Shown here: piece by piece, positions 29,108 through 47,460 of the stretch
Position numbering within the stretch: position 1 is the first letter of the stretch
Layout: each line of letters begins with the position of its first letter
From: Actinoallomurus soli
GTDB taxonomy: Bacteria > Actinomycetota > Actinomycetes > Streptosporangiales > Streptosporangiaceae
Direction of reading: 5' to 3'
DNA: 64,000 nt
Assembly: GCF_024055715.1 (NCBI RefSeq)
Contig: NZ_JAMXMV010000021.1
Span: forward strand, 1 to 64,000
Translations under genes and position numbers: made by a program
The notes under the pieces: generated by a model
Told to the model about the DNA's origin: nothing
Databases searched by the model: none
What the model saw: only the letters and a program-made list of their open reading frames with translations

Positions 29108-29327
29108 CCGTGTCCCCCTGTCCGGCCGTACATCCCGTCTCGCGCCGCACGAAGTTATCAGCCCCGGCGGGCGAGGCTCGGCCGAGCGCCGATACGCGTG
29201 CGACGGTGGTCCCCCGCAACCGGCGTCGCGCGGGGTACGCCGGTTCCCTGAACGGAAGCACCGATCGGTGGTGACGCCACCACCGCCCGCTACGTCAGGG
29301 CCCTGCCGGCCACGCGGGAGCGGCTGG

Positions 29328-32248: not shown

Positions 32249-33949
32249 TCAAGGGTCGGGGGGCGAGTCGACGCGGAGTACCTGCAGTTGCACCATCAAG
32301 GCGAACCGCTGGTCGGGATCGCCGAGATCGCACTGCCCGACCTCGGTGACCCGCCGGAGCCGGTACCGGAAGGTGTTCTGGTGGACGGCGATCGATTCGG
32401 ACGCCGTGACGACGTCGCCGAACGCGTGCAGCCAGGCGCAGAGTGTCCGGACGAGATCGCCGCGGCGCCGGCGGTCGTAGTCGATCAGCCGTGCCAACGC
32501 TCCCGTCGGCTCCTCGCCTCGGGCCGTGGCGAGGTCCCGCAACTCCGAGATCAGAGCTTCGCCCTGCAGCTCGTCGAACCGGCCGATCCGCCGGTGGAGG
32601 CGTCCCTCGCGGAGCACTCGCAGGACCCTGTCGACACAGGAGCGGCTGTGGGCCACATCGGACAGGTCGAGCGCCACCGGGGCCACCGCGGTGATCGGCG
32701 GCAGCCGGTCCCCCACCCGGTCCAGGAAGTCCTGGAGGATCCCCACCGCGCGTGTCCCGGCCGTCTCCACGGCTCCGGTCATGGGCACCAGCCCATAGGT
32801 GACCGCGCCGATCGCCGCCGCCGCGGCTCGAGGGTGGATCGCCGACAGGTGCAGGGCGAACGCGTCGCTGAGCCGCTGCCGGTCGTGGACCACGGTCGCG
32901 CTGCCGGAGTTGTCATAGCGCGGGCCTCGTTCGTCGAGAGCCACGCCCAGCACCAGCAGCGGCTGACCCGCCAGACCGAGCCGTTCGAGCGCCTCACCTG
33001 CGCCGACCCCGCCTTCCAGCGCGGTGCTCAGCAGGTCGGTCCGCATTCGCCGCTGCACGTCGGCGCCGGCGCGGACCCGGAGCATGTGCAGGGCGACCAG
33101 CTTGGCCGACTCGCGCAGCGCCTCGTTGCGCTCGTCGCTGAGACGGCCGGGCACCACTGCCCAGATGGAACCGAGCACCTCATCACCCGCCCGTACGGAG
33201 ATGGCGACGCGTGGCAGCGTGGTGCCGCCCATCCCGTCGGAGAAGGGTTCGATGTAGACGGTCTGGTCGCTGCGGAGCAGATCCCGGAAGTCCCCCCGCT
33301 CGTGCAGAACGCGCGCGTACCGCTCCGGCACCTGGCGGCCGAGGATCGTTTCGACGCGGGAAGGGTCGGCCTCGTCCTGGCGGCCGGAGAAGGCGAGCAC
33401 GCGGGAGTTGCGGTCCTCGATGGTGATCGGTGCGTCGAGAAGCGCCGCGATCGCGTTGGCGACCGCGAACAGGTCACCCGCGGGCAGCCCGCCGAGCGAC
33501 TCCTCATCGGCGGGCCCTGCGCCTGCGCCCTGGGCGAGCAGGGAGCGGAGCATCTCGCTGAGGTGGCCCCAGGGGGCACCTCGGCGCAGGCCGAGCACGG
33601 CGACCGCCGCTTCGTCGGCGGCGGCCCGTACCTCGTCGGTGAGCGGGACCGGCGCGCGGACAACGAGCGCGGCCGCGTTCTGCTCCCCCAGCCGGCGCAG
33701 GAGAGCGGCGACGTGACCGGGAGCCTCCACCCCGACACCGAGCACCAGCGCGTGGGAGGGCAGCACCGGCTGATCGAGTGGGTCATGGAACACGACGGCG
33801 CTGATCTCCCCGGGACGGTCGGGGTCGCCGTGGGCGAGTTCGAGCAGGGTCGCGCCGAGGTCGTCGACGACCCGTCCGAGATTCGCGCGGGGACGCGCGG
33901 TGCCGGCGTGCTGCACGGTCTCACCGTAGACGCGCGAGATCACGCTCAA
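32249..33949 (-). CDS. PucR family transcriptional regulator
   Basis: About 566-residue regulator with an N-terminal sensor region and the C-terminal PucR helix-turn-helix (RTLCAWLHAFGDVVTASESI, then AVHQNTFRYRLRRVTEV). In between is a GGDEF-like/CdaR segment (TSLLALGV-type fold; here FALHLSAIHPRAAAAAIGAV). The start is uncertain: TTG 33949, GTG 33943 or a later GTG near 33913 are possible and none has a strong ribosome site. It is the last gene of the long peptide/amino-acid operon, 50 bp after the racemase, and is its likely controller. PucR regulators often sense nitrogen compounds such as amino acids or purines. Confidence 0.82.
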   Translation of the reverse strand: MSVISRVYGETVQHAGTARPRANLGRVVDDLGATLLELAHGDPDRPGEISAVVFHDPLDQPVLPSHALVLGVGVEAPGHVAALLRRLGEQNAAALVVRAPVPLTDEVRAAADEAAVAVLGLRRGAPWGHLSEMLRSLLAQGAGAGPADEESLGGLPAGDLFAVANAIAALLDAPITIEDRNSRVLAFSGRQDEADPSRVETILGRQVPERYARVLHERGDFRDLLRSDQTVYIEPFSDGMGGTTLPRVAISVRAGDEVLGSIWAVVPGRLSDERNEALRESAKLVALHMLRVRAGADVQRRMRTDLLSTALEGGVGAGEALERLGLAGQPLLVLGVALDERGPRYDNSGSATVVHDRQRLSDAFALHLSAIHPRAAAAAIGAVTYGLVPMTGAVETAGTRAVGILQDFLDRVGDRLPPITAVAPVALDLSDVAHSRSCVDRVLRVLREGRLHRRIGRFDELQGEALISELRDLATARGEEPTGALARLIDYDRRRRGDLVRTLCAWLHAFGDVVTASESIAVHQNTFRYRLRRVTEVGQCDLGDPDQRFALMVQLQVLRVDSPPDP

Positions 33950-33999
33950 CTAGTCGAATCCGCCGAATCCAGCCGCTCTCTTTCGTCCTGTTCGACCAT

Positions 34000-35106
34000 T
34001 CACCCGGTGAGCCACTCGGCGGCGGTGGTGACCTCGGCGAGCCGGTCCGGCACCGGCACCAGTCCGAGCCCGGGGCCGGTGGGAACCTCGAGGTGGCCGT
34101 CGTCGAGGACGAACGGCTCGGTGATGTCCGAGGCGTAGTACCGTCCGGACGCCGAGGTGTCGCCGGGCAGAGTGAAGCCGGGCATGGCGGCGAGCGCGAC
34201 GTTGGCGGCCCGGCCGAGGCCGGTCTCCAGCATCCCGCCGCACCACACCGGGATGCCGTGAGCGGCGCAGACGTCGTGGATCCGACGGGCCTCGAGATAT
34301 CCGCCGACCCGTCCGGGCTTGATGTTCACCACCTGGCAGGCGCCCAGCCGGATCGCCGCCGCGGCGTCGCGGGCCGACGTGATGGACTCGTCCAGGCAGA
34401 TCGGCGTCCGGATCTGCCGGGCCAGCTCCACGTGGCCGAGCACGTCCTCCTCGTCGAGGGGCTGCTCGATCAACAGAAGGTCGAAGGGGTCCAGCCGGGC
34501 CAGCTGTCGCGCGTCGGCCAGGGTATAGGCCGTGTTGGCGTCCACCTGGAGCAGGAGGTCATCGCCGTACCGCTCGCGGACCGCGCGAACCGGCGCGAGA
34601 TCCCAGCCGGGCTCGATCTTGAGCTTGATGCGGACGTAGCCCTCGGCCAGGTAGCCGTCAACGGCGTCGAGGAGCTCGGGAACGCTGTCCATGATCCCGA
34701 CCGAGACACCGCACGGGACCCGGTCGCGCACGGCGCCGAGCTCGCGACCGAAGGAGCGGCCCTCGGTGCGCAGTTCGGCGTCCAGTACCGCCATCTCGAG
34801 CGCCGCCTTGGCCATGCGGTGGCCCTTGAACGGCGCGAGGATCTCGGCGACGGCGTGGGCCGTCGGCGGGCCGGCCGCCATCACCGCCGGAACGAGGAAC
34901 CGGCGCAGCACGTCCGCGGCCGCGTCGACGTACTCAGAGGAGTAGAGGGGGTCGGTCATCGCCACGCACTCGCCCCACCCTTCGGCGTCGTCCGTCGCCA
35001 CGCGCACGAGCAGGATGTCGCGGGTGGTCTGGGTGCCGAACGATGTACGGAACGGCGCGACCAGGGGCATGGAGATCCGTCGCAGTTCGACGCCGGTGAG
35101 TTTCAT
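34000..35106 (-). CDS. N-succinylamino acid racemase / o-succinylbenzoate synthase (enolase superfamily)
   Basis: 368-residue member of the NSAR/OSBS group, the same length as the Amycolatopsis N-acylamino acid racemase. Catalytic residues fall on the same numbers as in that enzyme: acid/base Lys163 (in RIKLKIEPG), metal ligands Asp189 (QVDAN), Glu214 (IEQPL), Asp239 (LDESI), and Lys263 (IKPGRVGG). It should interconvert N-succinyl-D- and L-amino acids; OSBS activity for menaquinone synthesis is the alternative. The start overlaps the GNAT stop (ATGA). Its neighbours, a GNAT acyltransferase and an M20 hydrolase, point to racemisation rather than menaquinone. Confidence 0.88.
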   Translation of the reverse strand: MKLTGVELRRISMPLVAPFRTSFGTQTTRDILLVRVATDDAEGWGECVAMTDPLYSSEYVDAAADVLRRFLVPAVMAAGPPTAHAVAEILAPFKGHRMAKAALEMAVLDAELRTEGRSFGRELGAVRDRVPCGVSVGIMDSVPELLDAVDGYLAEGYVRIKLKIEPGWDLAPVRAVRERYGDDLLLQVDANTAYTLADARQLARLDPFDLLLIEQPLDEEDVLGHVELARQIRTPICLDESITSARDAAAAIRLGACQVVNIKPGRVGGYLEARRIHDVCAAHGIPVWCGGMLETGLGRAANVALAAMPGFTLPGDTSASGRYYASDITEPFVLDDGHLEVPTGPGLGLVPVPDRLAEVTTAAEWLTG

Positions 35107-35975
35107 GATTCCCTCCGTACGATGTACCAGCCGGCACGGTCGAAGCCGTCGATCCGGCCACCGCGGCCGGTCAGGCCGATGAGCGCCTCGCGCACGGCGA
35201 GCCGCCAGCGCCGTGCCAGTTCGGGTTCGGTCGCGCGGAGCGCCGTGATGTCCCGGGGCACGGCGACGAGTGAGGTCGCACCGTCAAGGCTGCCGGGTAC
35301 CGGGCTGCCGTCCTCCGCGATGCCCAGCGCGAGGACGGCACCCGCCCTCATCTCGTCTTCGGCCACCTCACCGGCGCCGCCCCCGAGGCCGGCGAGGGCG
35401 ACCGTGCCGTCGCGGAGCCGCCAGCGCACCAGGAGCCGGTCGGACTCCCCGTCGCTGTTGATGGCGTCGACCATCGGGCCATAGAAGTTCGGCAGGTACT
35501 CGACCGGCCGCGCGGCCAGCTTCACGAGGTTGAAGTAGGCGTTCCGCGCCACCAACGGGTCGAACGTCCAGGCGATCTCGGAGACACCGCGCAGCAACGC
35601 CCATGCCCGTTGGTGCAATTTGAGCGCGAAGCCGACACTGCGGCCGGTGACGGCCGCGGAGACACCGGCGATGTGGCTGTGGAGAGCGCCGCCCGCCGGG
35701 GCGAAGAAGCCCACACAGGCGCCGACCAGACGGTCGCCGTCGAAGGCGCCGGCCACATAGTTGCCGGCCTTGGTGAAGGCACGCAGCAGTTCGATCGTCA
35801 CCGGCGGGTTCGCGGAGCGGCCCCAGATGGTGGCGAACAGGCTGACCACACTGGTGAGCTCAGTGATGTCGGTGAGCTCGCGCACCGAGACGCCGGCCGC
35901 CTCGGCCGCGGCCTCCGCGGCCCGCACCGCGTGGTCCAGCACCGGCTCCGCGGCCGGGACGCTGATATCGGTCAC
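35103..35975 (-). CDS. GNAT-family acyltransferase, candidate D-amino acid N-succinyltransferase
   Basis: 290-residue protein of the COG3375-type GNAT group: VVSLFATIWGRSANPPVTIE, YVAGAFDGDRLVGACVGFFA, GRSVGFALKLHQRAWALLRG (acyl-CoA-binding region), EIAWTFDPLVARNAYFNLVK. In Geobacillus a protein of this sort, next to NSAR, succinylates D-amino acids with succinyl-CoA. GTG 35975 is set by the repeat structure: the preceding micro-ORF ends TGA inside GTGA. It overlaps the racemase start downstream. Role follows family and context; the acyl donor is unproven. Confidence 0.82.
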   Translation of the reverse strand: MTDISVPAAEPVLDHAVRAAEAAAEAAGVSVRELTDITELTSVVSLFATIWGRSANPPVTIELLRAFTKAGNYVAGAFDGDRLVGACVGFFAPAGGALHSHIAGVSAAVTGRSVGFALKLHQRAWALLRGVSEIAWTFDPLVARNAYFNLVKLAARPVEYLPNFYGPMVDAINSDGESDRLLVRWRLRDGTVALAGLGGGAGEVAEDEMRAGAVLALGIAEDGSPVPGSLDGATSLVAVPRDITALRATEPELARRWRLAVREALIGLTGRGGRIDGFDRAGWYIVRRES

Positions 35976-36043
35976 GGGGCCTCCTTCGTCGGCCCCGTGA
36001 CCACGGTGCTGTGCATACCGGTTCCCTCGCTTCGCTCGGTCAC
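35972..36043 (-). CDS. Micro-ORF C (23 codons), directly upstream of GNAT
   Basis: GTG at 36043, TGA ending at 35972. The peptide begins MTERSEGTGM and ends GPTKEAP. Its TGA overlaps the GNAT GTG start (GTGA). The ribosome site for GNAT (AAGGAGG) lies inside its last codons. Probably a coupling element rather than a functional peptide. Confidence 0.5.
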   Translation of the reverse strand: MTERSEGTGMHSTVVTGPTKEAP

Positions 36044-36176
36044 GGAGCCTCCTTCGTCAACCCCGCGACCACGGTGCTGTGCATACCGGTTCCCTCGCTT
36101 CGCTCGGTCACGGAGCCTCCTTCGTCGGCCCCGCCACCACGGTGCTGCGCATACCGGTTCCCTCGCTTCGCTCGGT
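35973..36176. repeat. Three tandem 68-bp repeats between M20 and GNAT genes
   Basis: Copies at 35973-36040, 36041-36108 and 36109-36176, each exactly 68 bp with only a few differences. On the minus strand every copy carries GTGACCGAGCGAAGCGAGGG at its head and GACGAAGGAGG, a strong ribosome site, at its end. The spacing makes each copy an ORF overlapping the next by GTGA. Confidence 0.92.
36040..36111 (-). CDS. Micro-ORF B (23 codons)
   Basis: GTG at 36111, TGA ending at 36040; peptide begins MTERSEGTGM and ends GLTKEAP. Overlaps micro-ORF A and C by GTGA at each end. Nearly the same protein as its neighbours, since the copies differ by only a few bases. Confidence 0.5.
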   Translation of the reverse strand: MTERSEGTGMHSTVVAGLTKEAP

Positions 36177-36215
36177 CATGGCGTTCCTGCTCCTCAGCTC
36201 GTCGAGGGTCGTCAC
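36108..36215 (-). CDS. Micro-ORF A (35 codons), starts inside the M20 stop
   Basis: GTG at 36215 overlaps the M20 stop (GTGA), reads VTTLDELRSRNA and then the repeat peptide MTERSEGTGMRS...GPTKEAP, stopping in GTGA at 36108. The internal ATG at 36179 has its own site AGGAGCAGGA. It links M20 translation to the repeat chain. Confidence 0.5.
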   Translation of the reverse strand: MTTLDELRSRNAMTERSEGTGMRSTVVAGPTKEAP

Positions 36216-37342
36216 GGGCGTGCCGCGGTGGGCGTGGTGAACGGGTCCGGCGAGCCCGCAGGCAGCTGTTCGATCAGTGCGCGCACCAGCGCCGTCCGCG
36301 CGGGCATCTCCGCGACCAACACGTGTTCGTCGGCGGCATGCGCGCCGCCGCCGACCGCGCCGAGGCCGTCCAGGGTGGGCGTGCCGACGCCGGCGGTGAG
36401 GTTCCCGTCGGACGCGCCGCCGACCGCGGCCCGAGCGGGCTCGGGCAGTCCCCGGTCCAGGGCGATCCGGCACAGCAACGCGTAGAGCGCGGCCGAGGCC
36501 GCCGCCTCGAGCGGGGGACGGCTCGAGCCGTCGGTGAGCTCGACGCGGGCGCCGGGCACCCTGGGCCGCAGCGCGCGGAGCGCCCGGTCGACCCGTTCCT
36601 GTTCCACCGCGGTCCTGGCCCGTACGTCGACGGCGAACGTGCCCTCGGCCGGGACGGTGTTGGCGGTCGTGCCGGCACGGGCGACGGTCGGCGTGACCGT
36701 GGTACCGGCCTTCGGGTCGGCGAGCGCGCTGACGGCCAGCACCTGGTGAGCCAGCTCCAGCGTGGCGTTCACGCCCCGATCCGGCTCCAGTCCGGCGTGG
36801 GCCGCGCGTCCGGCCACGCGTATCTCGTACTGCGCGGCGCCTTTGCGCTCGGTCTTGAGGGCACCGCCGTCGGCGGACGCCTCGAACACCAGGGCGGCCG
36901 TCGCCGCCCTGGCCTCCTGCTCGATCAACGCGCGGGAGCTGGGCGAGCCGATCTCCTCGTCGCCGGTCACGAGCAGGGTGACACCGTCGAGGCCGGCGGC
37001 CGCGTGGAACGCCATGACCAGGCCGGCCTTCATGTCGAAGCAGCCGGGTCCGCGCAGGATCCCGTCCTCGACGGTGCAGGGGTGGTCGGCCAGCGTGCCG
37101 AGTGGCCACACCGTGTCGTGGTGGCCGAGGAGCAGCACGCGGGACGGTCCCGTGCCGAGCCGCCAGCGCAGGTGTGTTCGACCGTCGAGCACGATCCGCT
37201 CGGGTGCGACGCCGAGGCGTGCGGTGCCGACCCGGGCGACGACCTCGGCGGAGCGTGCGACGGCGGCCAGGTCGGTGGAGGGTGACTCGCACTCGATGAG
37301 GGCGCGTACGTCGGCGAGCAGGTCGCGAAGGGCGGCCGTCAC
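36212..37342 (-). CDS. M20 family metallohydrolase (carboxypeptidase G2/desuccinylase-like)
   Basis: 376-residue M20 hydrolase. Zinc ligands and catalytic acids appear in LLLGHHDTVWP, GPGCFDMKAGLVMAF, TGDEEIGSPSS, ERKGAAQYEIRVAGRAAHAG and GGAHAADEHVLVAE near the C-terminus. The group includes carboxypeptidase G2 and N-succinyl/N-acyl-L-amino acid deacylases. In the NSAR context it could remove succinate from N-succinyl-L-amino acids, making the D-to-L conversion irreversible. GTG 37342 overlaps the S9 stop by GTGA. No signal peptide, so it acts in the cytosol. Confidence 0.87.
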   Translation of the reverse strand: MTAALRDLLADVRALIECESPSTDLAAVARSAEVVARVGTARLGVAPERIVLDGRTHLRWRLGTGPSRVLLLGHHDTVWPLGTLADHPCTVEDGILRGPGCFDMKAGLVMAFHAAAGLDGVTLLVTGDEEIGSPSSRALIEQEARAATAALVFEASADGGALKTERKGAAQYEIRVAGRAAHAGLEPDRGVNATLELAHQVLAVSALADPKAGTTVTPTVARAGTTANTVPAEGTFAVDVRARTAVEQERVDRALRALRPRVPGARVELTDGSSRPPLEAAASAALYALLCRIALDRGLPEPARAAVGGASDGNLTAGVGTPTLDGLGAVGGGAHAADEHVLVAEMPARTALVRALIEQLPAGSPDPFTTPTAARP

Positions 37343-40300
37343 AGGTGCACCCGCGGGGTCGCGCGTGCGCCGAAGTGCAGGTACCGCTCACCGGTCGGCA
37401 GCTCGTAGAAGGTGACCGGCGCCCAGGTCTGCGCCTCGGGCGGCCTGACGGCGAACAGGGCCGGACCGGCCGGCACCAGCGCGTGCTCTTCGACCGGGTC
37501 CGGCAGCAGCTCGGCGAGCGGACCGGTGATGGTGGTCCGGAGCAGTGGTCCCTCCGAGCCGTTCTCGACCTCCATGCGCACCCCGGACCGCTCGTAGACG
37601 CCGACGTGGGGTGCCGCGTCGGCGGTCACCGGTTCGGGCGGCGGCGCGAACGGCGGGGGCATCGTGACGCCGGCGACCTCGGCGAAGATCTCCCGGTACA
37701 GGTCCTGGTAGAGGCCGCGGGCGTCACCGCCGTTGGTGAGCAGGGCGACGGCGAGTCCCTGTTCGGGCAGCACCCGCAGGAACGCCGCCTGGCCGAGCGT
37801 GTTGCCGTCGTGGCCGATCAGGCGGTGCCCGTCCCAGCCGAACCGGATCCAGCCGAGCCCCCATGAGTCGCCGAGGGTGTGTTCGTCGGGCAGGTCGGTC
37901 TCGTGCGCGGCCATGGCTGCGGCGCCGTCCGCGCTGAGGATCCGCGTGCCGTCGGCCGCGAGACCGCCGGTCAGATGCAGCCGCGCGAAGGCCAGGACCT
38001 CGGCGGCGGTGGAGGTGATCAGCCCGGCCGGGCCGATCGAGCGGGGCAGCGTCCAGGCGGGTGCCGGGACGGGCTCGCCCTCATACTCGTCGTGGCCGAC
38101 CGCGGCGGAGAAGAGCAGTGCCTCCTCGGGCAGGGTCACCGTGTGCGTCAGTCCGAGCGGGGCGCACAGCCGGTCGCGCAGCGCTCGGTCCCACGTCTGC
38201 CCGGTGACCTTCTCGATCACCCGGCCCAGGAGCGCGTACCCCGCGTTGCAGTAGGAGAAGGTGGCGCCCAGCGGGTGGTTCTGCCCGGCGTCGCCGAGGA
38301 GGTCGACGTACTTCTCCAGGCAGTCGTCGCCGCGGCCGGTGTCGGTGAACACGTCGCCGTCGATGCCGCTGGTGTGGGTGAGCAGGTGCCGCACCGTGAC
38401 CGACTTCGTGACGTCGGGGTCGGCGAGCCGCAGCTCCGGCAGGACGTCGGCGACCGGGGTGTCCAGCGCGAGCGATCCCTCGTCGATCAGGGTCATGGCC
38501 ACGGTCGCGGTCCAGACCTTGGTGATCGAGCCGATCTGGAACAGCGAGTCGGTGGCGACGGGTGCGCCGGTGCGGACGTGCAGGACGCCGTGGGCGGCCT
38601 CGACCAGCTCGTCGTCGAGTCCGTTCGTTCCGATGCGGAGGATGCCGAGCTGCGCGCCGGGGACGTTGTGCCGCTCGGCGAGCCGGGCCAGCCGCCGCCG
38701 CCAGTGCGCGCCGTCGACGCGGGCCCGGCCTGCCCGGCCGGTGTGCTGTTCGAGCCAGTCCAGCACCCGGTGGTTGAAGTCGAGCCGCTGCGAGGGCGGG
38801 CCGAGCAGGATGAACAGGTGGGACGCGTCCGGGTAGACCACCAGCCGGGTCGGGACGCCTCGCTCCCGCAGCGCGGTGTGCCACTGCTGAGCCTGCCCGA
38901 GCGGGCAGGTCAGGTCGGCGGCGCCGTGGAACAGCAGCGTCGGCGTACGGACGTCGGCCACGCGGGTGAGCGGTGACATGGCGGCGTACTCCGCCGGCTT
39001 CTGCCACGGGGTGCCGTCGAGTTCATGGACGCTGAGAAGGTGGCCTTCGTCGCTGGAGCCGGCCAGGCTCACCAGGTCGCTGACCGTGCCGCCGGCGACG
39101 GCCACCGCGAACCGGTCGTCGTGACCGGTCAGCCAGCAGGTCATGAACCCGCCGTAGCTGTATCCCGCCACCGCGAGCCGGTCCGGGTCCGCGAATCCCT
39201 CGGCCACGAGCCGGTCGAGCGGCTCGAGGAAGTCGGCCGCGTCGGCGATGCCCCAGCCACCGCGGACACCGTCGTAGAACGCCTCGCCGTATCCGTCGCT
39301 GCCGCGCGGGTTGACCAGCAGCACCGCCCAGCCGCGGGCGACCAGTTCCTGGTGGTAGAGGTGGATCTCGTCGGCCGCCGCGTTCCACGCGTTGTGCGGG
39401 CCGCCGTGCACGTCGAGGAGGACCGGCCGCGGGCCGGTGCGCGCGGGGTCGTGCATGAGCCATGCCTGCACCTCGGTGCCGTCGGAGACGGTGAACCACC
39501 GCTCCTCGCGGGGGTACAGGTCCACGCCGGCGAGTGCGGCGCCATGGTCGGTCAGCACGGTCTCGGCCCCGGTCGCCGGCTCCACGACCGCGATCTCGCC
39601 GAATGACGTGGGGGTGGTGAGGGCCACCGCGGCGCGGCCGCCGCCGGCCGACAGCCCCGAGACGACCCGGCCGGGCCCGGTGATGACCGGGCGCGCGTCG
39701 TCCCCGCCGGTCGTGACCGACCACAGGTGGGTGCAGCCGTGGTCACGCAGGCAGAAGAGGATCCGGCCGTCGTCCTCATGCGGCAGGCCGCCGGGATAGG
39801 CGGGACCGCCGGGCATCACGTTGCGGTCGAGGGCGTCCGACAGGTCGGTGACCTCGCCGCCGGCGGCATCGACGCGGTACAGGTGGGCGTGTCCGACCGG
39901 GTCGCCGGACCAGCCGGTCACGAGCAGCGCGGAGCCGTCGGCGACCCAGCCGACGGTGCTGGCCACCCCGTCGGCGAAGGCGAGGATTCGTGCCCGTGCG
40001 TACGGCGTGTCCACCTCCAGCAGGTGCACGGGGGTGCGGTGGCGCAGGTCGCCGTCGGCACCGGCCCCGCGGGTGAAGGCGAGAGCGATGCCGTCCGGTG
40101 ACCAGGCCGGGGTGCCGGCGCTCTCCGGTCCGTCGGTGAGCTGCCGGACCTTGCGGCCGTCCAGGTCCAGAACGTGCAACTGCCGGCGCACCGGGCCGCG
40201 GAACCCCTGCCCGTCGGCCTGGTAGTCGAGGCCGTCGGAGACCATCGGCCCCCGCGCGCCGCCGGTCGGGTCGACCGGTGCGGTGAAGGCGAGCCGGCGG

Positions 40301-40641: not shown

Positions 40642-40710
40642 GAGTCCTCCTTCGTCGGAGGAGTGACCAGGGGCGCTGTGTTCATTGATGCACTCGCTCC
40701 GCTCGTTCAT
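40642..40710 (-). promoter_or_regulatory. Junction module upstream of the S9 gene, related to the 68-bp repeats
   Basis: 69 bp starting at ATGA that overlaps the ATPase stop. It carries GAGCGGAGCGAG at the head and GACGAAGGAGG at the end, the same plan as the repeats at 35973-36176. Here the module stays in frame with the S9 gene, so it could encode a 23-residue N-terminal extension or act only as coupling leader. Confidence 0.55.
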
Positions 40711-41453
40711 GGCCTGCTCCTTCGTGTCGTTCGCCCGGGTACGGCGGCGAGCAGTTCGCGGGTGAAGTCGTGACCGGGCTCGGTGAGCACCCGTGTCGTC
40801 GGTCCCTGCTCGACGAGCCGGCCGTGCCGCATGACCGCGACGTGCGAGGCGACATAGCGGACGACCGCGAGGTCGTGGGAGATGAACAGCATCGCCAGGC
40901 CCAGCTCGCGCTGGAGCTCACGGACGAGGTTGAGCACGGCCCCCTGGACCGAGACGTCCAGGGCGGAGGTGATCTCGTCGGCGATGATCACGCGCGGGCG
41001 CGCCGCGAGCGCCCGCGCCAGTGCGACCCGCTGCCGCTGACCGCCGGACAGCCGGGACGGGACGGCACCGGCACAGACCGGGTTCAGGTGCACCAGTTCG
41101 AGCAGCCGCTCGACCTCGGCTCGCCGGTCGGCGCGTGAGCCGCCCGGCGGCATCGCCTCGGCCACACTCTGTGCGACCGTCATCCGGGGGTCGAGCGATG
41201 AATAGGGGTCCTGAAAGACCATCTGCAGCGGACGCGGCCGGCCTCGTGCCGGGACCGGCGCGCCGCCGAGGGTGATCCGGCCGCCGGCGAGCGGAGCCAG
41301 GCCGACGGCGGCCCGGGCCAGCGTGGACTTGCCGGAGCCGGACTCACCGACGAGCCCGACCACCGCGCCCTCGGGGACCGTCAGGCTGACCCCGTCGACG
41401 GCGGTCGTCCGGCCGTAGCGGACCGTGACATCCTCGAAGCGCAGCTCACTCAC
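40707..41453 (-). CDS. Peptide ABC transporter ATP-binding protein (OppF/DppF type)
   Basis: 248-residue ATPase. Walker A is GESGSGKSTLARAAVGLAPL, the Q-loop region MVFQDPYSSLDPRMTVAQSV, the signature LSGGQRQRVALARALAARPR, and Walker B VIIADEITSALDVS with H-loop LFISHDLAVVRY. The GTG start overlaps the stop of the permease-ATPase fusion (GTGA). With the second ATPase domain in the fusion it forms the usual heterodimeric Opp/Dpp pair powering peptide import. Confidence 0.9.
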   Translation of the reverse strand: MSELRFEDVTVRYGRTTAVDGVSLTVPEGAVVGLVGESGSGKSTLARAAVGLAPLAGGRITLGGAPVPARGRPRPLQMVFQDPYSSLDPRMTVAQSVAEAMPPGGSRADRRAEVERLLELVHLNPVCAGAVPSRLSGGQRQRVALARALAARPRVIIADEITSALDVSVQGAVLNLVRELQRELGLAMLFISHDLAVVRYVASHVAVMRHGRLVEQGPTTRVLTEPGHDFTRELLAAVPGRTTRRSRP

Positions 41454-43405
41454 GGCGACTCCACCAGGTCATCGATGCTCCTGTCGTCCGGTCGGACCGG
41501 CAACGGCTCCCCCGCTTGCCAGCACGCCACCCGGTGGCGTGGCGAGTCGGCCGGGGCGGCCGGGTCGGCCGCCAGCAGCGGGTCCTCGGCCTCGCAGCGG
41601 GCGTCGGCGAGCGGGCACCGGTCGGCGTAGGCACAGCCGGGCGGCACGTCGGCCGGGTCGACCGGGCGGCCCGGGATCGTCGCGAGCGGCTCCGTCGGGT
41701 CCGTGTTCATGTCGGGCACCGCGTCGACCAGCGCCCGGGTGTAGGGGTGCCGGGCGGCGGTGGCCAGCTCGGCGGCCGGCAGGTCCTCGACGATCCGGCC
41801 GGCGTACATCACCAGGATCCGGTCGCAGACCTCACCGACCACCGTGACGTCGTGGCTGATCAGGATCAGCGCGACATCGTCCGCTTCGCGGATCGCGGCG
41901 AGCAGGTCCAGCACCTGTTGCTGCACCGTGACGTCGAGAGCGGTGGTCGGCTCGTCCGCGACGATCAGCGCCGGGGCGCCCATCAGCCCCATCCCGATCA
42001 TCGCCCGCTGGCGCATCCCGCCGGAGAACTCGTGGGGGTACTGCCGGGCACGCCGGTCCGCGTCCGGAATCCGGACCGCCGTCAACCGGTCGACGGCGCG
42101 GGCCATCGCCTCCTTGCGGCTCCTGCCCTGGTGGCGCGTGGCCACTTCCGCCAGCTGGGCACCGATCCGGCGGGTGGGGTTGAAAGCGGTCATCGGGTCC
42201 TGGAAGACCATGGCCAGCGTGGTGCCCAGTGTCCGGCGCCTGACCGCGGTGTCCGGCGCCAGCAGATCGTCCCCGAGGAATTCGAGCCGGGAGGCGTCGA
42301 CACGGCCGTGGTCGGCGAGCAGCCGGGTGACCGCGAGCGCGGTCATGGACTTGCCGGAGCCCGACTCCCCGACGATGCCGATCGCCTCGCCGCGGCGTAC
42401 GTCGAAGGACACCCCGCGGACCGGCCGTACGGGACCCGACGGCCCGGAGACGGTGACCTCGAGGTCGCGGACGTCGAGCACCACCTCCGGCGACCGGTCC
42501 CCGGCCTCCTCGCCCTGATCCGTACGCTCCGGCCCGCTCGCCGCCCCGGCGCGGGCGGACCCCACCCCGCGCAGGCCGCCGCCGACGGGGACGCCGAGCC
42601 CCTTGGCGACCGACTCGCCGAAGAGGTTGAACGCCAGCCCGGCCAGCAGCACCGCCGCGCCCGGGGCGAGCGCCGCGGGCGCGTTCACGTAGATCATGCC
42701 GATGCCGTCGTAGAGCAGACGGCCCCAGTCATAGGAAGGCGACTGGACGCCGAGGCCGAGGAACGACAGCCCGGCGAAGGACAGGAGTGCGGTGCCGGCG
42801 CCGATGGTGGCGTTGACGACCAAGGGCTCGGCGATGTTGGGCAGCACGTGGCGGAGGAGGATCCGGAACCGGCCGATCCCAACCGCCCGGGCCGCCGCGA
42901 CGTAGTCCCGCGCCGCGACCCCGGCGACGAGCGTCTGAGTGAGGCGCGCGAACGCCGGGGCGCCCGCGAGGCCGATGGCCAGGACCGCGCCGGTCGCGCC
43001 GACACCGAACACGACCGCGAAGAACAGCGCCAGCAGCAACCCCGGGAACGCGACGGCGATGTTCACTCCGGCCGACACCCACCGGCCGGTCCGGCGGCCG
43101 AGCACGAACGGCGCCGACCCCAGCAGCGACCCGGCGACCACGGCGATCACGGTGGCGAGCAGGGCGAGCAGGATCGACAGCCGGGACGCGACGAGGACCC
43201 GCAGGAGGATGTCCCGGCCCAGGTTGTCCGTTCCCGCCCAGTGCCGAGCGGAGGGCCGGGCCAGGATGGCGTCGGTGTCGACGGCGCCGGCGCCGGATCC
43301 CCACAGAACCGGTCCCAGGACGGCCAGGGCGACGACCGCCACCACGAGCACGGTCGCCGTGAGGCCCAGTGGCGTGCGGACGACCCGCCTCCAGCGTCCT
43401 TGCAT
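41450..43405 (-). CDS. Fused peptide ABC transporter permease (DppC) and ATPase (DppD)
   Basis: 651 residues. About 1-270 form a DppC-type permease with transmembrane helices and the EAA-like loop (DYVAAARAVGIGRFRILLRH, VLPNIAEPLVVNATIGAGTA). From about 315 on lies a DppD-type ATPase: GIVGESGSGKSMTALAVTRL (about 345), the Q-loop MVFQDPMTAFNP, signature FSGGMRQRAMIGMGL (about 460) and the OppD C-terminal region with cysteine-rich CAYADRCPLADARCEAEDP. Such permease-ATPase fusions are known in Actinobacteria. It follows the permease gene after 3 bp and overlaps the next ATPase. Confidence 0.9.
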   Translation of the reverse strand: MQGRWRRVVRTPLGLTATVLVVAVVALAVLGPVLWGSGAGAVDTDAILARPSARHWAGTDNLGRDILLRVLVASRLSILLALLATVIAVVAGSLLGSAPFVLGRRTGRWVSAGVNIAVAFPGLLLALFFAVVFGVGATGAVLAIGLAGAPAFARLTQTLVAGVAARDYVAAARAVGIGRFRILLRHVLPNIAEPLVVNATIGAGTALLSFAGLSFLGLGVQSPSYDWGRLLYDGIGMIYVNAPAALAPGAAVLLAGLAFNLFGESVAKGLGVPVGGGLRGVGSARAGAASGPERTDQGEEAGDRSPEVVLDVRDLEVTVSGPSGPVRPVRGVSFDVRRGEAIGIVGESGSGKSMTALAVTRLLADHGRVDASRLEFLGDDLLAPDTAVRRRTLGTTLAMVFQDPMTAFNPTRRIGAQLAEVATRHQGRSRKEAMARAVDRLTAVRIPDADRRARQYPHEFSGGMRQRAMIGMGLMGAPALIVADEPTTALDVTVQQQVLDLLAAIREADDVALILISHDVTVVGEVCDRILVMYAGRIVEDLPAAELATAARHPYTRALVDAVPDMNTDPTEPLATIPGRPVDPADVPPGCAYADRCPLADARCEAEDPLLAADPAAPADSPRHRVACWQAGEPLPVRPDDRSIDDLVESP

Positions 43406-43408
43406 CCG

Positions 43409-44416
43409 TCAGTCCTCCCGGATCTTCGAGCGGGGGTCGAGCAGGGCGATGGCGACGTCGACGACGAGGTTGACGATCAGCACGCCGACGCCGTACACGA
43501 GGACGATCGCCTGCACCACCGGATAGTCCTTGGTGATGATGGAACGCACGATCGTGCTGCCGAGGCCCGGCCAGGCGAAGACGTTCTCGACGAGGACGGT
43601 GCCGGCGACCAGCGCGCCCAGCAGGAGCCCGCCCACCGTCAGCGCGGCGGTGACGGCGTTGGGCAGCGCGTGGCCGACGTAGATCGCCCGGGCGGGCAGG
43701 CGCTTGGCCCGGGCGGTCCGGATGAAGTCGGCCTCGAGCACTCCGACCATCTCGACGCGGACGATGCGGGCGAGGATCGCCGCCGGCCCGATCGCCAGTG
43801 AGAACACCGGCAGCACGTACGCCGACGCGGTGGCGTCACCGGCGACGGGCAGCCACCCGAGCTGGATCGCGAAGACGTACACCAGCGCGACACCGATCAG
43901 GAAGTCCGGGATGGTCGCCACGATGATGCTGGTCGTGGTGAAGGCGAGCTCGGTGCGTCGTCCGCGGCCACGCCGGGTCAGCACGCCCGTGACGACGCCC
44001 AGCGGGATCGCCAGGACCACGGCCGTCAGGAAGGCGAGCCCGGCCAGGATGAGCGTGGCCGGCAGCCGCTGGGCGACCACGTCGGAGACCGGAAGCTGCG
44101 AGGCGAGCGACGTGCCGAGGTCTCCGGTCACCAGCCCCTTCAGATAGTGGAGGTACTGGACGAGGATCGGGCCGTCCAGGCCCAGGGCGTGCCGGCGGGC
44201 CGCGACCAGGTCCGCCGGAGCGGTCGGACCCAGCGCTCCCCGGACCGGGTCCCCCGGGATGAGGTGGATCATCGCGAAGGACGCCGTCACCAGGACCCAC
44301 AGCGAGACCAGCAGCCGCCTCAGGCGCCGGACGCCGAACCGTACCGACGGAAGAGCCCAGAGTCGTGGTCGCGCGGGGTCCACGGGCGGGCTCGGGACGG
44401 TCAGAGTCGCCGGCAT
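43409..44416 (-). CDS. Peptide ABC transporter permease (DppB type)
   Basis: 335-residue permease. The first helix follows a basic N-terminus (RLLVSLWVLVTASFAMIHLI, PGDPVRGALGP), and the typical DppB motif LGLDGPILVQYLHYLKGLVT follows. The loop FIRTARAKRLPARAIYVGHA, LPNAVTA is the EAA cytoplasmic motif that contacts the ATPases. Six helices are expected. It sits 18 bp after the binding protein gene and 3 bp before the fusion gene. Complete length for DppB. Confidence 0.9.
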   Translation of the reverse strand: MPATLTVPSPPVDPARPRLWALPSVRFGVRRLRRLLVSLWVLVTASFAMIHLIPGDPVRGALGPTAPADLVAARRHALGLDGPILVQYLHYLKGLVTGDLGTSLASQLPVSDVVAQRLPATLILAGLAFLTAVVLAIPLGVVTGVLTRRGRGRRTELAFTTTSIIVATIPDFLIGVALVYVFAIQLGWLPVAGDATASAYVLPVFSLAIGPAAILARIVRVEMVGVLEADFIRTARAKRLPARAIYVGHALPNAVTAALTVGGLLLGALVAGTVLVENVFAWPGLGSTIVRSIITKDYPVVQAIVLVYGVGVLIVNLVVDVAIALLDPRSKIRED

Positions 44417-44434
44417 GTCCGCTCTCCCCCTTCC

Positions 44435-46030
44435 CTACTTCGCCAGCATGCGGATGCTGGTGGGAACGAGCTCGCCTGGCGTCTGGAATTCCGCGGACTT
44501 GCCGAACGTGCGCACGACATCGCCGGCGAACGGCACGACGTCCGCCTTGGCGATCAAGCCGGACTCCGCGGCGAGCCAGTCGTGGCACCCGGCCGTGCCC
44601 TGGATCGCCATCGCCGACTTCGCCGCCGCGTCGTAGTCCGGGTCGGAGATCGCGGCGAAGTTGTTGCCCTGCGGCGCCGCCGGTCCGGAGAGGAAGGGCA
44701 TGAGCTGGTCCGGGGCGTTGACGTTGACCGGGGCCCAGGCGACGTCCCAGTTGCCGGTGCCGAAGATCGTGTTCGTCAGGGTCGTCTCGTTCTGGCTGTG
44801 CGCGGTGGCCTCCACGCCGATCGCCTTCCACTGCCGCACCGCCAGCTCGGCCGCCGCGTCGCCGCTGGTGCCGTTCCTGTTCTCGTAGACGAGGGTCAGC
44901 TGCAGCGGTCTGCCGTTCTTGGTGCGCCTGCCGTCGCTTCCCCTGGCCCAGCCCGCCTGGTCGAGCAGAGCGCCCGCCGCCTGCGGGTCACGGGCCGGCA
45001 GAGCGTGGGAGACGGAGTCACCGTGACAGGCGACCGGCTCGTTCACTGCCAGCGTCGTCGCCGCGGTGCCGCGGCCCGACGTGAGCACCTTCTGCAACTG
45101 GCCGAGGTCGAGCGCCTGAGTCAGCGCCTTCCGGACCCTGGGGTCGCCGGTGGCCCGGCCGGCGCGCTGGTTGTACCACTGCTCGCCGACGATGTTCGGG
45201 GTCCTGGCCGCGTACAGGCCGGCCTTCTCCAGCCGCTCCGCATCGGGCCCGACGATCTGAGCGCCGTTCAGGCCGCCCGAAAGCAGGAGGTTCGCCGCGG
45301 TCGTCGGGTTCTCGACCACCTTGATCACGACGGTCTTCGGCAGTCCCCTGGTCGCGGTCGTCGCACCGTTCGGACCCCAGGTGTAGCCGTCGCGGATCGC
45401 GTACGTGTAGTGGTCACCCGGCGCGGCCTGGGTCAGCTTGTAGGGCCCGGTGCCGGCCGTCGCCGTCCGCAGCGAGGACCGGTCGGCCATGCCGCCGGGG
45501 CAGACGATCGGCAACTCGGCCAGTCCGTTGAGGACGAACGGGGCCGGCCGGGCCAGTGTGAGCGTCACGACGCGGGTGGCGTCGTCGCCCTTCGCCGTGA
45601 CGCCGGCCGGGAGGAAGGTCCCCAGGAAGGGGCTCTTGTTCTTCGGATCGGCGACGAAGTCGAGGTTCTTCGCCACGTCGGAGGCGGTGAGGCGAGTGCC
45701 GTCGGAACAGGTGATGCCGTCGGCCAGCGTCAGCGTGACCGATCTGCCGTTGCTCTGCCAGCTCTTGGCCAGCGCCGACCGGATCGCGCCGGTCGTGCCG
45801 TCGACGCTGACCAGCGAGTCGTAGGCGAACCGGGAGACCGTGAACAGAGAGGTGCCCGCACCCATCTGCGGGTCGAGGTTGCCCGGGTCCGAAGAGAGCC
45901 CGTAAGTGAAGGTGCCGCCGTCGACGACCCCGGCTTTGCCGCCGCCGTTCGCGGCGCCCCCGCAGGCGGTGAGCGCGGCCGCGGCCAGGGCGAGGCAGAG
46001 GCCGTGAATGCCCAGACTGGTCAGCTTCAT
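44435..46030 (-). CDS. Peptide ABC transporter substrate-binding lipoprotein
   Basis: 531-residue family 5 (Opp/Dpp) binding protein. Lipobox LTACGG with Cys23 after a hydrophobic signal sequence marks it as a lipoprotein. Body motifs: FTYGLSSDPGNLDPQMGAGT, FAYDSLVSVDGTTGAI, GTGPYKLTQAAPGDHYTYAI, DPRVRKALTQALDLGQLQKV. It captures peptides (or other oligomeric ligands) outside the membrane and delivers them to the permeases encoded downstream. ATG 46030 is the start of the signal; the longer frame to 46600 is a shadow of the next gene. Confidence 0.88.
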   Translation of the reverse strand: MKLTSLGIHGLCLALAAAALTACGGAANGGGKAGVVDGGTFTYGLSSDPGNLDPQMGAGTSLFTVSRFAYDSLVSVDGTTGAIRSALAKSWQSNGRSVTLTLADGITCSDGTRLTASDVAKNLDFVADPKNKSPFLGTFLPAGVTAKGDDATRVVTLTLARPAPFVLNGLAELPIVCPGGMADRSSLRTATAGTGPYKLTQAAPGDHYTYAIRDGYTWGPNGATTATRGLPKTVVIKVVENPTTAANLLLSGGLNGAQIVGPDAERLEKAGLYAARTPNIVGEQWYNQRAGRATGDPRVRKALTQALDLGQLQKVLTSGRGTAATTLAVNEPVACHGDSVSHALPARDPQAAGALLDQAGWARGSDGRRTKNGRPLQLTLVYENRNGTSGDAAAELAVRQWKAIGVEATAHSQNETTLTNTIFGTGNWDVAWAPVNVNAPDQLMPFLSGPAAPQGNNFAAISDPDYDAAAKSAMAIQGTAGCHDWLAAESGLIAKADVVPFAGDVVRTFGKSAEFQTPGELVPTSIRMLAK

Positions 46031-46071
46031 GGCTGTTCCGTTTCCGTACGTTCTCGTGGCGGGGTTCGGCG

Positions 46072-47460
46072 TCAGGCGCCGGCGCGGCGCACCGCGCGGC
46101 CGAGGTGCAGGTACAGCGCGTGGCCGGTGCCGTCGTCGCCCAGGAACGCGTGCGGCATGTACATGCCGCGATCGGCGCGGACCGGAATCAGCATGTCGTC
46201 GCGGTAGTGGACGAGTTCGGTACGCTCGGCCCGCCCGCCCAGCTCCTCGAAGACGCCCTTGGGAGTCTGTTCGATCCAGATCCGCTGATCGTCGTCCTGG
46301 CTGACGGTGAGGTCGAAGACCGAGGCCGAGTAGGTGCCGACGTACCGCTCGGCGTCGATCCGCCGGGGCTCCGCGGGCGGGACGGGGAGGGGCGGCAGAC
46401 CGACCTCGGTGAGCTCGCCCAGCACCTGGCCCACGACGTCGCGGTAGAGCGAGACGGCGTCGCCGCCGTTGGTCAGCAGCGCGACGGCCAGTCCTGCCTC
46501 GGGGACCATCCGCAGGAACGCCGCCTGCCCGATGGTGTTGCCGTCGTGCCCGATGATGGTGCCGTCCGGCGTGTCGAACCGTTCGAAACCGAGGCCCCAC
46601 GACGTCCCCATGAGACCGAGCTCGGGCAGGTCGACCTCCCGATCGTGCATCCGGGCGGCGGTTCCCGCAGCCAGCACCCGGGTGCCGTCGGCCGCCCGGC
46701 CGTCCTCGAGGTGCATCCGCGCGAAGGCGACCAGGTCCCGCGGCCGCATCGCGAGCATCGAGCCGGCCGGGGCGTTCGACCGCGCCATGGCCCAGATCGG
46801 CGCCGGCACGTAACCGGCACCCGGTTCCGTCTCGATGTGCCCCACCGCGGCGCGGAACATGATCGCCTCATAGGGGCCGGTGGCGGTGTGGGTGAGCCCC
46901 AGTGGCGCGATGAGGTGTTCGCGCAGGCACGCGTCGTACGGCTGCCCGCGCAGCACCTCGACGAGCCGGCCGAGCACGCAGTAGCCGGCGTTGTTGTACG
47001 AGAAGCGCTCGCCGGGCGGGAACAGCTGCGGCACCTCGTGCAGGGTCGCGACGTACTTCTCGAGACAGTCGTCGCCCACCCCGGTGTCGGTGAAGATGTC
47101 CCCCTCGAACCCGGCCGTGTGGTCGAGCAACTGCCGGACGGTGATCCGCTCGGCCGCCTCCTCGTCGGCGACGCGGAACTCCGTCAGATAGGTGCGCACC
47201 GGTCGGTCGAGGTCGACCGCGCCCTCGTCGACCAGCTGCATGACCAGCGTGGCGGTCCAGAGCTTGGTGACCGACCCGATCTGAAACACCGAGTCCGCGG
47301 TCGCCTCCACCCCGGTCGTCCTGCTGAGCAGGCCGGCTGCTCCGTCGACCACCCGGTCGTCCTGCACAACGGCCCACCCCACGCCCGGAACATCGTGTTC
47401 CTCGAGCAACCGTGGAAGCTGCTCATCGAGCCGAGCGTGGATGTCGTCAAGGTTGCCCAT
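46072..47460 (-). CDS. Beta-lactamase-fold serine hydrolase (class C type)
   Basis: 462-residue serine hydrolase of the beta-lactamase/penicillin-binding superfamily. Catalytic Ser63-x-x-Lys66 in QIGSVTKLW, Tyr-Asn motif in FSYNNAGYCVLG, and LDHTAGFEGDIFTDTGVGDD, GWGFERF-like third region, then a small C-terminal beta-domain. The family includes D-aminopeptidases, esterases and DD-peptidases. It is paralogous to the C-terminal half of the S9 fusion. ATG 47460 gives a start at MGNLDDIHARLDEQLPRLLE; no signal peptide. First gene of the operon, 41 bp upstream of the binding protein. Confidence 0.87.
   Translation of the reverse strand: MGNLDDIHARLDEQLPRLLEEHDVPGVGWAVVQDDRVVDGAAGLLSRTTGVEATADSVFQIGSVTKLWTATLVMQLVDEGAVDLDRPVRTYLTEFRVADEEAAERITVRQLLDHTAGFEGDIFTDTGVGDDCLEKYVATLHEVPQLFPPGERFSYNNAGYCVLGRLVEVLRGQPYDACLREHLIAPLGLTHTATGPYEAIMFRAAVGHIETEPGAGYVPAPIWAMARSNAPAGSMLAMRPRDLVAFARMHLEDGRAADGTRVLAAGTAARMHDREVDLPELGLMGTSWGLGFERFDTPDGTIIGHDGNTIGQAAFLRMVPEAGLAVALLTNGGDAVSLYRDVVGQVLGELTEVGLPPLPVPPAEPRRIDAERYVGTYSASVFDLTVSQDDDQRIWIEQTPKGVFEELGGRAERTELVHYRDDMLIPVRADRGMYMPHAFLGDDGTGHALYLHLGRAVRRAGA

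Follow-up and report, generated by a model that had tools for sequence, protein, structure and literature searches.

RESULTS

Organization of the locus

Analysis of a 64,000-nt stretch of Actinoallomurus soli DNA (the window, to whose numbering all positions refer) showed ten co-oriented genes on the minus strand, running from the ATG of an S12 hydrolase gene at 47460 to the stop codon of a PucR gene at 32249. Their order is SH (S12), SBP, PermB, PermC-ATPase, OppF-type ATPase, S9-S12 fusion, M20, GNAT, NSAR, and PucR.

46072..47460, minus strand: SH, S12 (beta-lactamase fold) serine hydrolase, 462 aa, first gene (PF00144, 228 bits)
44435..46030, minus strand: SBP, lipoprotein-type solute-binding protein, family 5, 531 aa (PF00496, 174 bits)
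43409..44416, minus strand: PermB, Opp-type permease, 335 aa (PF00528 and PF19300)
41450..43405, minus strand: PermC fused to an OppD-type ATPase, 651 aa (PF00528, PF00005, and PF08352 in one frame)
40707..41453, minus strand: OppF-type ATPase, 248 aa (PF00005, 104 bits; 4-nt overlap with the PermC-ATPase gene)
40642..40710, minus strand: a single degenerate MIRU-like unit where the S9-S12 gene begins (repeat comparison)
37339..40641, minus strand: S9-S12 fusion peptidase, 1100 aa, or 1123 aa from 40710 (PF07676, PF00326, and PF00144 in one frame)
36212..37342, minus strand: M20 metallohydrolase, 376 aa (PF01546 and PF07687; 4-nt GTGA overlap with the fusion gene)
35976..36181, minus strand: three tandem 68-bp MIRU-like units in the M20-GNAT gap (repeat comparison)
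35103..35975, minus strand: GNAT acyltransferase, 290 aa, with an extra C-terminal domain (fold match)
34000..35106, minus strand: NSAR (N-succinylamino acid racemase), 368 aa (4-nt overlap with GNAT)
32249..33943, minus strand: PucR-type regulator, 564 aa (PF13556, 62 bits)

Coordinates and domain searches confirmed the ten minus-strand genes, their order, and the families named in the initial annotation. That annotation also described tiny gaps or GTGA/ATGA overlaps, a description that fits the other junctions and fails at M20-GNAT, where 236 nt separate the two genes. The remaining spacings are 41 nt (SH-SBP), 18 nt (SBP-PermB), 3 nt (PermB-PermC), −4 nt (PermC-OppF), 65 nt (OppF-fusion; with a fusion start at 40710 the two genes would instead share 4 nt, ATGA), −4 nt (fusion-M20), −4 nt (GNAT-NSAR), and 56 nt (NSAR-PucR). 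Judged from this spacing, the operon may be read as a single transcript. A scan of the region found no sigma-70-like promoter, and the number of terminator-like sites was at chance level. Each of the repeat units in the M20-GNAT gap carries a mini-ORF and a ribosome-binding-site-like AAGGAGG; the label MIRU-like follows the description of MIRUs in an excerpt of PMC12548453.

Predicted peptide importer

The five domains of the importer are encoded by four genes, since one permease and one ATPase form a single protein. A family 5 SBP, two BPD permeases, and two ATPases with oligo_HPY are all present, and by these domains the system belongs to the Opp class with a predicted peptide ligand, in line with the peptide-type assignment made at first. 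Hydropathy analysis of the SBP showed an N-terminal hydrophobic segment with LTAC. The best NCBIfam match of PermB was Opp2B at 277 bits, below the cut-off of 350, and none of the importer proteins scored above its NCBIfam cut-off. Among solved chains, the nearest to the SBP were a mixture of NikA, murein-peptide, and other binders, its likeness being spread alike over nickel, peptide, and, weakly, opine-type binders. With relatives this mixed and no cut-off passed, sequence comparison did not lead to a ligand.

S12 and S9 hydrolases

SH carries the SxxK, YxN, and HxG motifs, which were kept in 40/40 aligned S12 sequences, SH orthologues and fusion S12 domains taken together (here and below, matches of <150 bits or <80% coverage were left out of residue counts). 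A structure search matched the SH fold to IS11, SurE, 2qmi, Lip3, and Ulm16. Of the 50 matches listed, the best over the full length was IS11, an enzyme described as an esterase, and many were class C beta-lactamases. The matches included SurE, in one entry with D-Leu, an octameric homologue from Pyrococcus abyssi, a DL-peptidase, the R61 DD-peptidase, a D-aminopeptidase, a D-amino acid amidase, and an alkaline D-peptidase. Thus, as far as the predicted structure indicates, the S12 fold resembles several D-stereospecific enzymes, in keeping with the D-aminopeptidases and DD-peptidases that the initial annotation named among beta-lactamase-fold enzymes. The Foldseek match to 2qmi, which bears on whether SH shares the CubicO arrangement of an S12 domain with a C-terminal beta domain, was full length with a TM score of 0.63-0.66, but its rmsd was 11.6. 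The CubicO motifs quoted in an excerpt of PMC2651629 (YAEAF/L, FFYLN, and C-terminal ERY) are absent from the SH sequence, and for this reason SH is not classed as a CubicO (Pab87) peptidase.

The fusion combines a beta-propeller, an S9 alpha/beta hydrolase of the oligopeptidase type, and an S12 domain. Its S495, D576, and H608 were kept in 39/39 sequences and its S12 motif residues in 42/42, and in all 38 relatives having both domains, S9 and S12 share one open frame. Among 246 genomes of the class, all 25 full-length fusions had a GNAT no more than 15 kb away; a further ten rows with a partial S9 or S12 were counted separately, and 4 of them lay within that distance. Hydropathy shows no N-terminal hydrophobic segment in SH, so it is probably cytosolic, and the fusion lacks such a segment as well. 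The earlier idea that cutting takes place inside the cell is therefore consistent with both S12 enzymes, whose cytosolic location would follow from this absence.

M20 hydrolase, GNAT, and NSAR

The nearest solved relative of the M20 protein is carboxypeptidase G2, and residues H74, D76, D103, E129, E130, E154, and H335 were kept in 53/53 sequences. The initial annotation had likened this enzyme to the M20 desuccinylase of Geobacillus. Membership in the M20 family held up, whereas the type differed from that of a Firmicutes cassette in Priestia: the operon enzyme is closest to carboxypeptidase G2, the Priestia one is a TIGR01891 protein, and their best local match was 27% identity over 74 residues with no full-length similarity. 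Since both belong to PF01546, they may still share a role.

The GNAT scored 18 bits against Pfam, below the curated cut-off of 22, and a sequence-profile search found no solved relative at E 0.1; the fold was searched instead. The AlphaFold2 model (mean pLDDT, 89.5) gave Foldseek matches to GNATs with an E value of 1.6e-7 and TM scores of 0.83 by target length and 0.46 by query length; in this model, the GNAT fold covers the N-terminal half of the protein. The GNAT that adjoins NSAR on a Priestia plasmid is 30% identical over 265 residues (E 1e-41), and on this sequence comparison with Priestia the partner is of the same family as the Firmicutes one.

NSAR matches the Amycolatopsis NSAR/OSBS (1sja) at 628 bits, and its K161, K163, D189, E214, D239, K263, and R266, the last of which is important for NSAR, were kept in 59/59 sequences. 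Both the family assignment and the intact catalytic residues uphold the identity first given to it. Automatic annotation of its relatives would make it instead the o-succinylbenzoate synthase (MenC) of menaquinone synthesis. It passes TIGR01928 (316 bits; cut-off, 200.65), a 45% relative is located in a men cluster, and MenD occurs in 58/70 NSAR genomes compared to 118/176 others (two-sided Fisher p 0.013). However, NSAR is not the only OSBS candidate of the genome, in which MenD (C60:17932-19173) lies 23 nt from another enolase-superfamily gene. Moreover, profile searches found no men gene among the operon genes, and 12/70 NSAR genomes had no MenD match at E 1e-60. NSAR is thus probably not the menaquinone enzyme, going by these profile matches, and a MenC role is extremely unlikely; at the level of genomes, the MenD-adjacent gene and the 12 genomes speak against a protein with only OSBS activity in that pathway, the main one of the outcomes under which the first interpretation was to fall.

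Conservation of the gene set

Whether the gene set is conserved elsewhere had been raised with the first reading of this DNA; the set recurs in many genera. Of 59 loci seeded with GNAT, 28 (11 genera by record title) keep NSAR, M20, PucR, S9, S12, and the importer, and PucR is within reach of GNAT in 53. Because no flank exceeded 10 kb and some contigs stop short, absences in these loci are lower-bound evidence. Presences in the class-wide survey of 246 genomes are likewise lower bounds, since scoring was limited to some of the first-look candidates.

Some trends were apparent. First, the pairing of NSAR with GNAT is near-obligate, in line with the initial annotation: all 70 NSAR genomes also have the GNAT (one-sided Fisher p 1.7e-58), and 61/77 NSARs lie within 1.5 kb of a same-strand GNAT, the other 16 not being beside one. 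This co-occurrence, with the recurrence of the order in many actinobacterial loci, places the arrangement beyond chance. Second, the M20 linkage is looser than the NSAR-GNAT pairing. M20 was present at cut-off in 56/70 NSAR genomes and missing from 14/70, 34 genomes have M20 without NSAR (n=246), and M20 is within 5 kb of NSAR for 41/77 NSARs; two Pseudonocardia loci have no M20, with relatives elsewhere at 46% only. In two genomes (L031 and L059), the importer has no adjacent NSAR and M20, both of which are together at a second locus with a GNAT between them. Third, other front ends occur next to the core, namely M19 dipeptidases, which have specificity for L-D dipeptides, PRK09061-type amidohydrolases, and amino acid importers. 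The open-license PMC literature gave no useful source for the L-D specificity of M19. Finally, streamlined genomes of 1.2-1.5 Mb (G114, G142, G195, and G221) retain the NSAR-GNAT pair.

The amidohydrolases beside the core also bear on a different reading of the operon, in which amino acids that are N-acylated or otherwise blocked, or opine-like compounds, enter through the importer, NSAR works on the N-acyl compounds so taken up, and the S12 enzymes serve as esterases or amidases. The likeness of the SBP to NikA and, weakly, to opine-type binders agrees with such a role, as does the esterase that is the best structural match of SH. However, it leaves the GNAT without a task, although this is the most constant partner of NSAR (70/70 genomes), and the S9 domain of the fusion is of the oligopeptidase type. 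We consider this reading unlikely.

DISCUSSION

Soil is rich in peptides with D-residues, which come from cell walls and from nonribosomal synthesis, and their uptake by bacteria and the recovery of their amino acids are poorly mapped. Based on gene content and motifs, the operon probably imports oligopeptides containing D-residues and yields their amino acids in the L-form. The SBP and the Opp importer would take up short peptides. In the cytosol, two S12 enzymes, SH and the fusion's S12 half, would then cleave at D-residues while the S9 half cleaves at L-residues. The freed D-amino acids would be acylated by GNAT, the N-acyl-D forms epimerized to N-acyl-L by NSAR, and the acyl group taken off the L form by M20, with PucR regulating the gene set. 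Because M20 would deacylate the L form, the reversible racemase would be pulled in one direction. The gene content, the intact active-site motifs, the conserved linkage, and the GNAT and S12 folds are directly supported. The chirality of the substrates, the acyl donor, the direction, and the cytosolic location are inferred.

The direction deserves attention because the reversibility of the racemase would also permit the opposite flow, in which the cassette would turn L- into D-amino acids destined for a product or for the cell wall, with the stereospecificity of GNAT and M20 setting the direction. The surrounding genes, however, are for uptake and degradation and not for biosynthesis, and M20 enzymes of this sort are as a rule specific for L forms. 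Such a reverse flow is very improbable.

The same chemistry might also serve to disarm or recycle bioactive nonribosomal peptides such as antibiotics and lipopeptides, and not for feeding. The hosts belong to the actinobacteria, many of which make bioactive nonribosomal peptides, and among the relatives of the S12 enzyme are a DL-peptidase, Lip3, and two PBP cyclases, SurE and Ulm16. However, the importer and three enzymes that rescue amino acids point to use of the products, and detoxification is less expected in the 1.2-1.5 Mb genomes that keep NSAR-GNAT. This aim seems improbable to us. As to the source of the peptides, N-acyl Met, Phe, and phenylglycine are given as substrates of such NSARs in an excerpt of PMC8142540, so a peptidoglycan origin appears to fit less well than hydrophobic D-residues.

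More tentatively, the fusion may be a two-handed peptidase in which S9 removes L-residues and S12 removes D-residues, so that a single polypeptide could digest mixed-chirality peptides and the operon would be a full route from such peptides to L-amino acids. If the proposed uptake and recovery holds, the operon would represent a conserved actinobacterial D-peptide route open to testing, give a natural role to NSAR enzymes widely annotated as menaquinone enzymes, and provide a candidate peptidase for mixed-chirality peptides with potential use in biocatalysis.

Several known systems share parts of this arrangement, among them the pathway for S-(2-succino)cysteine encoded by yxe genes in Bacillus subtilis (PMC9706529). 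The Amycolatopsis NSAR/OSBS (1sja), a full-length match with identical catalytic residues, was characterized alone. The yxe pathway reportedly proceeds by import, N-acylation by a GNAT, masked conversion, and unmasking by an M20 enzyme; its middle step is said not to be a racemase and it is said to have no peptidase, whereas the operon has NSAR and peptidases. Sulfitobacter and Deinococcus plasmid loci also have NSAR with a GNAT nearby, with amino-acid-type uptake genes in place of the Opp importer and no S9, S12, or M20 gene annotated in the viewed stretches. A Priestia megaterium plasmid cassette contains a regulator, M20, pieces of an amino acid permease, GNAT, and NSAR, and in an Amycolatopsis jejuensis genome (L092) the core has an amidohydrolase in front.

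The excerpt of PMC2651629 describes Pab87 of Pyrococcus abyssi as an S12 enzyme degrading D-residue peptides, with a D-aminoacylase as well as a dipeptide ABC transporter in its vicinity, for which processing of environmental D-peptides was proposed. SH lacks the CubicO-specific motifs quoted in the excerpt, which makes no mention of a GNAT-NSAR-M20 inversion like the one proposed for the operon. None of the open-license PMC papers listed for NSAR and its partners, a scope outside which most subscription papers fall, described this gene set in its title or abstract opening.

A further close counterpart is the pathway of Geobacillus kaustophilus, in which NSAR, a GNAT succinyltransferase, and an M20 desuccinylase are reported to convert D- to L-amino acids via N-succinyl intermediates. 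By this account, both place NSAR next to a GNAT, each of the same family in the two systems, and include an M20 hydrolase; the carboxypeptidase-G2-type M20, PucR, and the joined Opp importer and S12/S9 peptidases belong to the operon. The back end thus corresponds to the reported Geobacillus pathway, and its coupling to import and S12/S9 peptidases appears to be new.

Organization of the operon

The operon at 32249-47460 (minus strand) contains ten genes, which code in order for an S12-family serine hydrolase (SH), a solute-binding protein (SBP), the permease PermB, a fusion of the permease PermC to an ATPase, a second ATPase, an S9-S12 peptidase fusion, an M20 hydrolase, a GNAT acyltransferase, an N-succinylamino acid racemase (NSAR), and a PucR regulator. 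The families, order, and single strand proposed in the initial annotation thus hold. The tiny gaps or overlaps that it described were borne out in part: 4-nt overlaps occur at four junctions if the S9-S12 fusion starts at 40710, or at three if it starts at 40641, just upstream of which lies AAGGAGG, but M20 and GNAT are separated by 236 nt. This spacer contains three tandem 68-bp repeats, and the repeated element is found at start codons:

35976-36181, minus strand, MIRU-like 68-bp element
40642-40710, minus strand, MIRU-like 68-bp element

It also occurs in the stretches L105 to L116 and L023, L026, and L069. Its 17-base core has 15 copies in the genome, three of them in the window, compared to none for a reversed control. 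A ribosome-binding-site-like motif precedes the next start codon in 11 of the 12 copies outside the window, and the mini-ORF in these 12 has a TGA overlapping the next start in six and is read in frame into the start in four. Among eight relatives examined, three have the element (one of them in triplicate, the other two as a single copy) and the remaining five lack it. MIRUs are described for mycobacteria in PMC12548453, and the 68-bp element may be of the same kind.

PucR is flanked by a convergent gene for a 2-hydroxyacid dehydrogenase, which terminates 29 nt away; at the other end, upstream of SH, the operon strand also encodes a GDSL hydrolase. Farther out are an RCK domain-containing protein resembling the Castor/Pollux ion channels (27233-29401, minus strand) and an oxygen-dependent coproporphyrinogen III oxidase (51933-53120, plus strand; PF01218, 384 bits), an enzyme unusual in actinobacteria, which mostly use the coproporphyrin-dependent heme route.

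Conservation of the gene set

A GNAT scan restricted to one genome per species gave 59 loci. The closest named relatives of the operon GNAT are from Actinoallomurus. Conservation of the gene set, a question raised with the initial annotation, was confirmed: NSAR, M20, PucR, S9, S12, and the importer (counted when three or more of its four subunits matched at 55% identity) recur together in 28 of the 59 loci, from 11 genera by record title. The individual counts beside GNAT were 56 loci for NSAR, 53 for PucR, 51 for M20, 41 for an S12 domain, 38 for S9, and 36 for the importer; absences are soft, as the loci were selected by GNAT, the flanks were limited to 10 kb, and a number of contigs stop short. 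S9 and S12 form a single open frame in all 38 loci having both in line. The core lacks this importer and fusion in the Nonomuraea and Streptosporangium loci and in most Microbacterium loci.

A less biased view came from 246 genomes drawn evenly from the class (E values of 1e-90 for NSAR, 1e-20 for GNAT, and 1e-60 for M20). Part of the first-look candidates was scored, making presences lower bounds: NSAR occurs in at least 70 genomes and GNAT in at least 73. All 70 NSAR genomes have GNAT, and three (G070, G127, and G172) have GNAT without NSAR. A same-strand GNAT lies within 1.5 kb of 61 of the 77 NSARs, and 16 have none so placed. Each of the 25 full-length S9-S12 fusions is within 15 kb of a same-strand GNAT, and 24 are near an NSAR. 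M20 is more loosely linked, being found in 56 of the 70 NSAR genomes (14 have none at this cutoff), in 34 genomes without NSAR, and within 5 kb on either strand of 41 of the 77 NSARs.

Some exceptional loci are informative. First, in Umezawaea and Amycolatopsis jejuensis, NSAR and M20 are absent from the importer locus and lie together elsewhere, in a second locus with M20, GNAT, and NSAR in line, to which Umezawaea adds S9, S12, and PucR. Second, the Actinomadura rubrisoli locus (L066) lacks NSAR, a 74% relative being on a different contig. Third, two Pseudonocardia loci keep NSAR without M20 (their genomes having relatives at only 46%), and no M20 was detected beside GNAT in L061, where a 62% relative lies elsewhere; a strict requirement for this M20 therefore does not fit.

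The GNAT-NSAR pair is also retained in streamlined ~1.2-Mb genomes (L082 in G142, where MFS transporters adjoin it, and L134 in G114). The window's genome has two more pairs, C16:72798-73871 (L019) and C11:930452-931531 (L021), with NSAR identities of 70% and 45% and a diverged M20 near one. Two record labels are of note: the title Bifidobacterium breve looks doubtful for one MAG contig (L080; 42% GC, NSAR 59% identical to the window's), and a plasmid record named Pseudomonas fluorescens (L100, NZ_CP100662.1; 39% GC), on which a men cluster occurs together with a cspD-type gene and the sporulation gene yteA, resembles Bacillus DNA and is perhaps a misassigned contig.

NSAR, GNAT, and M20

The NSAR aligns full length with the Amycolatopsis NSAR/OSBS (628 bits), and all 59 sequences compared retain K161, K163, D189, E214, D239, K263, and R266, the last of which favors NSAR activity. 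The automatic model TIGR01928 labels the protein MenC, as public records do its relatives. MenD is somewhat commoner in genomes with NSAR (58 of 70 compared to 118 of 176; P = 0.013) and a 45% relative lies within a men cluster, so the wider family does include OSBS enzymes. However, another enolase-superfamily gene lies 23 nt from this genome's MenD, and 12 of the 70 NSAR genomes gave no MenD match, making it highly improbable that the window NSAR is the MenC.

In the GNAT predicted structure (mean pLDDT, 89.5), the N-terminal half matches GNAT acyltransferases, and the structure match gave no assignment for the C-terminal domain. The protein is 30% identical to an NSAR-adjacent GNAT on a Priestia plasmid. 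Among solved structures, the operon M20 is closest to carboxypeptidase G2, and it is unlike the Priestia M20; its likely metal ligands are kept in 53 of 53 sequences.

Peptidases

Over 392 residues, SH shares 50% identity with the S12 half of the fusion. All 42 fusion S12 domains retain the S12 motif (residues S, K, Y, N, H, and G), as do all 40 members of the SH set, a mixture of SH orthologues and fusion domains; S495, D576, and H608 of the fusion S9 are kept in 39 of 39. SH and the fusion lack an N-terminal hydrophobic segment, whereas SBP has a lipoprotein-like one, so the two hydrolases are probably cytosolic.

The SH predicted structure (mean pLDDT, 86.6) best matches IS11, described as an esterase, followed by SurE (also with D-Leu), an octameric Pyrococcus abyssi homologue, the DL-peptidase Lip3, Ulm16, and the R61 DD-peptidase. 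Lower among the best 50 matches are a D-aminopeptidase, a D-amino acid amidase, a D-stereospecific hydrolase, and an alkaline D-peptidase, along with numerous class C beta-lactamases. With D-stereospecific enzymes among these fold matches, D-specificity is the favored prediction. Judging from organism and octamer, the P. abyssi entry (2qmi) would be Pab87, which degrades D-residue peptides and has a D-aminoacylase encoded nearby as well as a dipeptide ABC transporter (PMC2651629).

Alternative front ends and comparison with known systems

Other lineages have different partners beside the GNAT-centered core. M19 dipeptidases, which cleave L-D dipeptides, are encoded at the core in L090, L057, and twice in L103 (Pfam confirmed), with 75 to 87% relatives in L124, L155, and L156, from the genus of L090; in several genomes of that genus (L090, L155, and L156) NSAR is located elsewhere. 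PRK09061-type amidohydrolases (PRK09061 was once named D-glutamate deacylase) occur in L089, L092, and L101, with 57 to 66% relatives in L086, L119, and L127. Other loci have a two-piece amino acid permease (L099), a polar amino acid ABC importer (L104), or a family 3 binding protein (L098). Across lineages, the pattern appears to be a constant inversion cassette paired with exchangeable ways to obtain D-amino acids, and this is the main argument that the operon would import D-residue peptides, cleave them, and epimerize the freed D-amino acids. Since N-acyl Met, Phe, and phenylglycine are among the NSAR substrates given in a review (PMC8142540), hydrophobic D-residues may suit better than peptidoglycan D-Ala or D-Glu.

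The comparator for the back end is the reported Geobacillus pathway, and by analogy the predicted back end is expected to work like it. In the strict sense the operon falls outside that pathway, as its M20 is of a different subfamily. What is new here is that a predicted inversion back end of known type is coupled to an importer and to S9/S12 peptidases, with a PucR protein as regulator.
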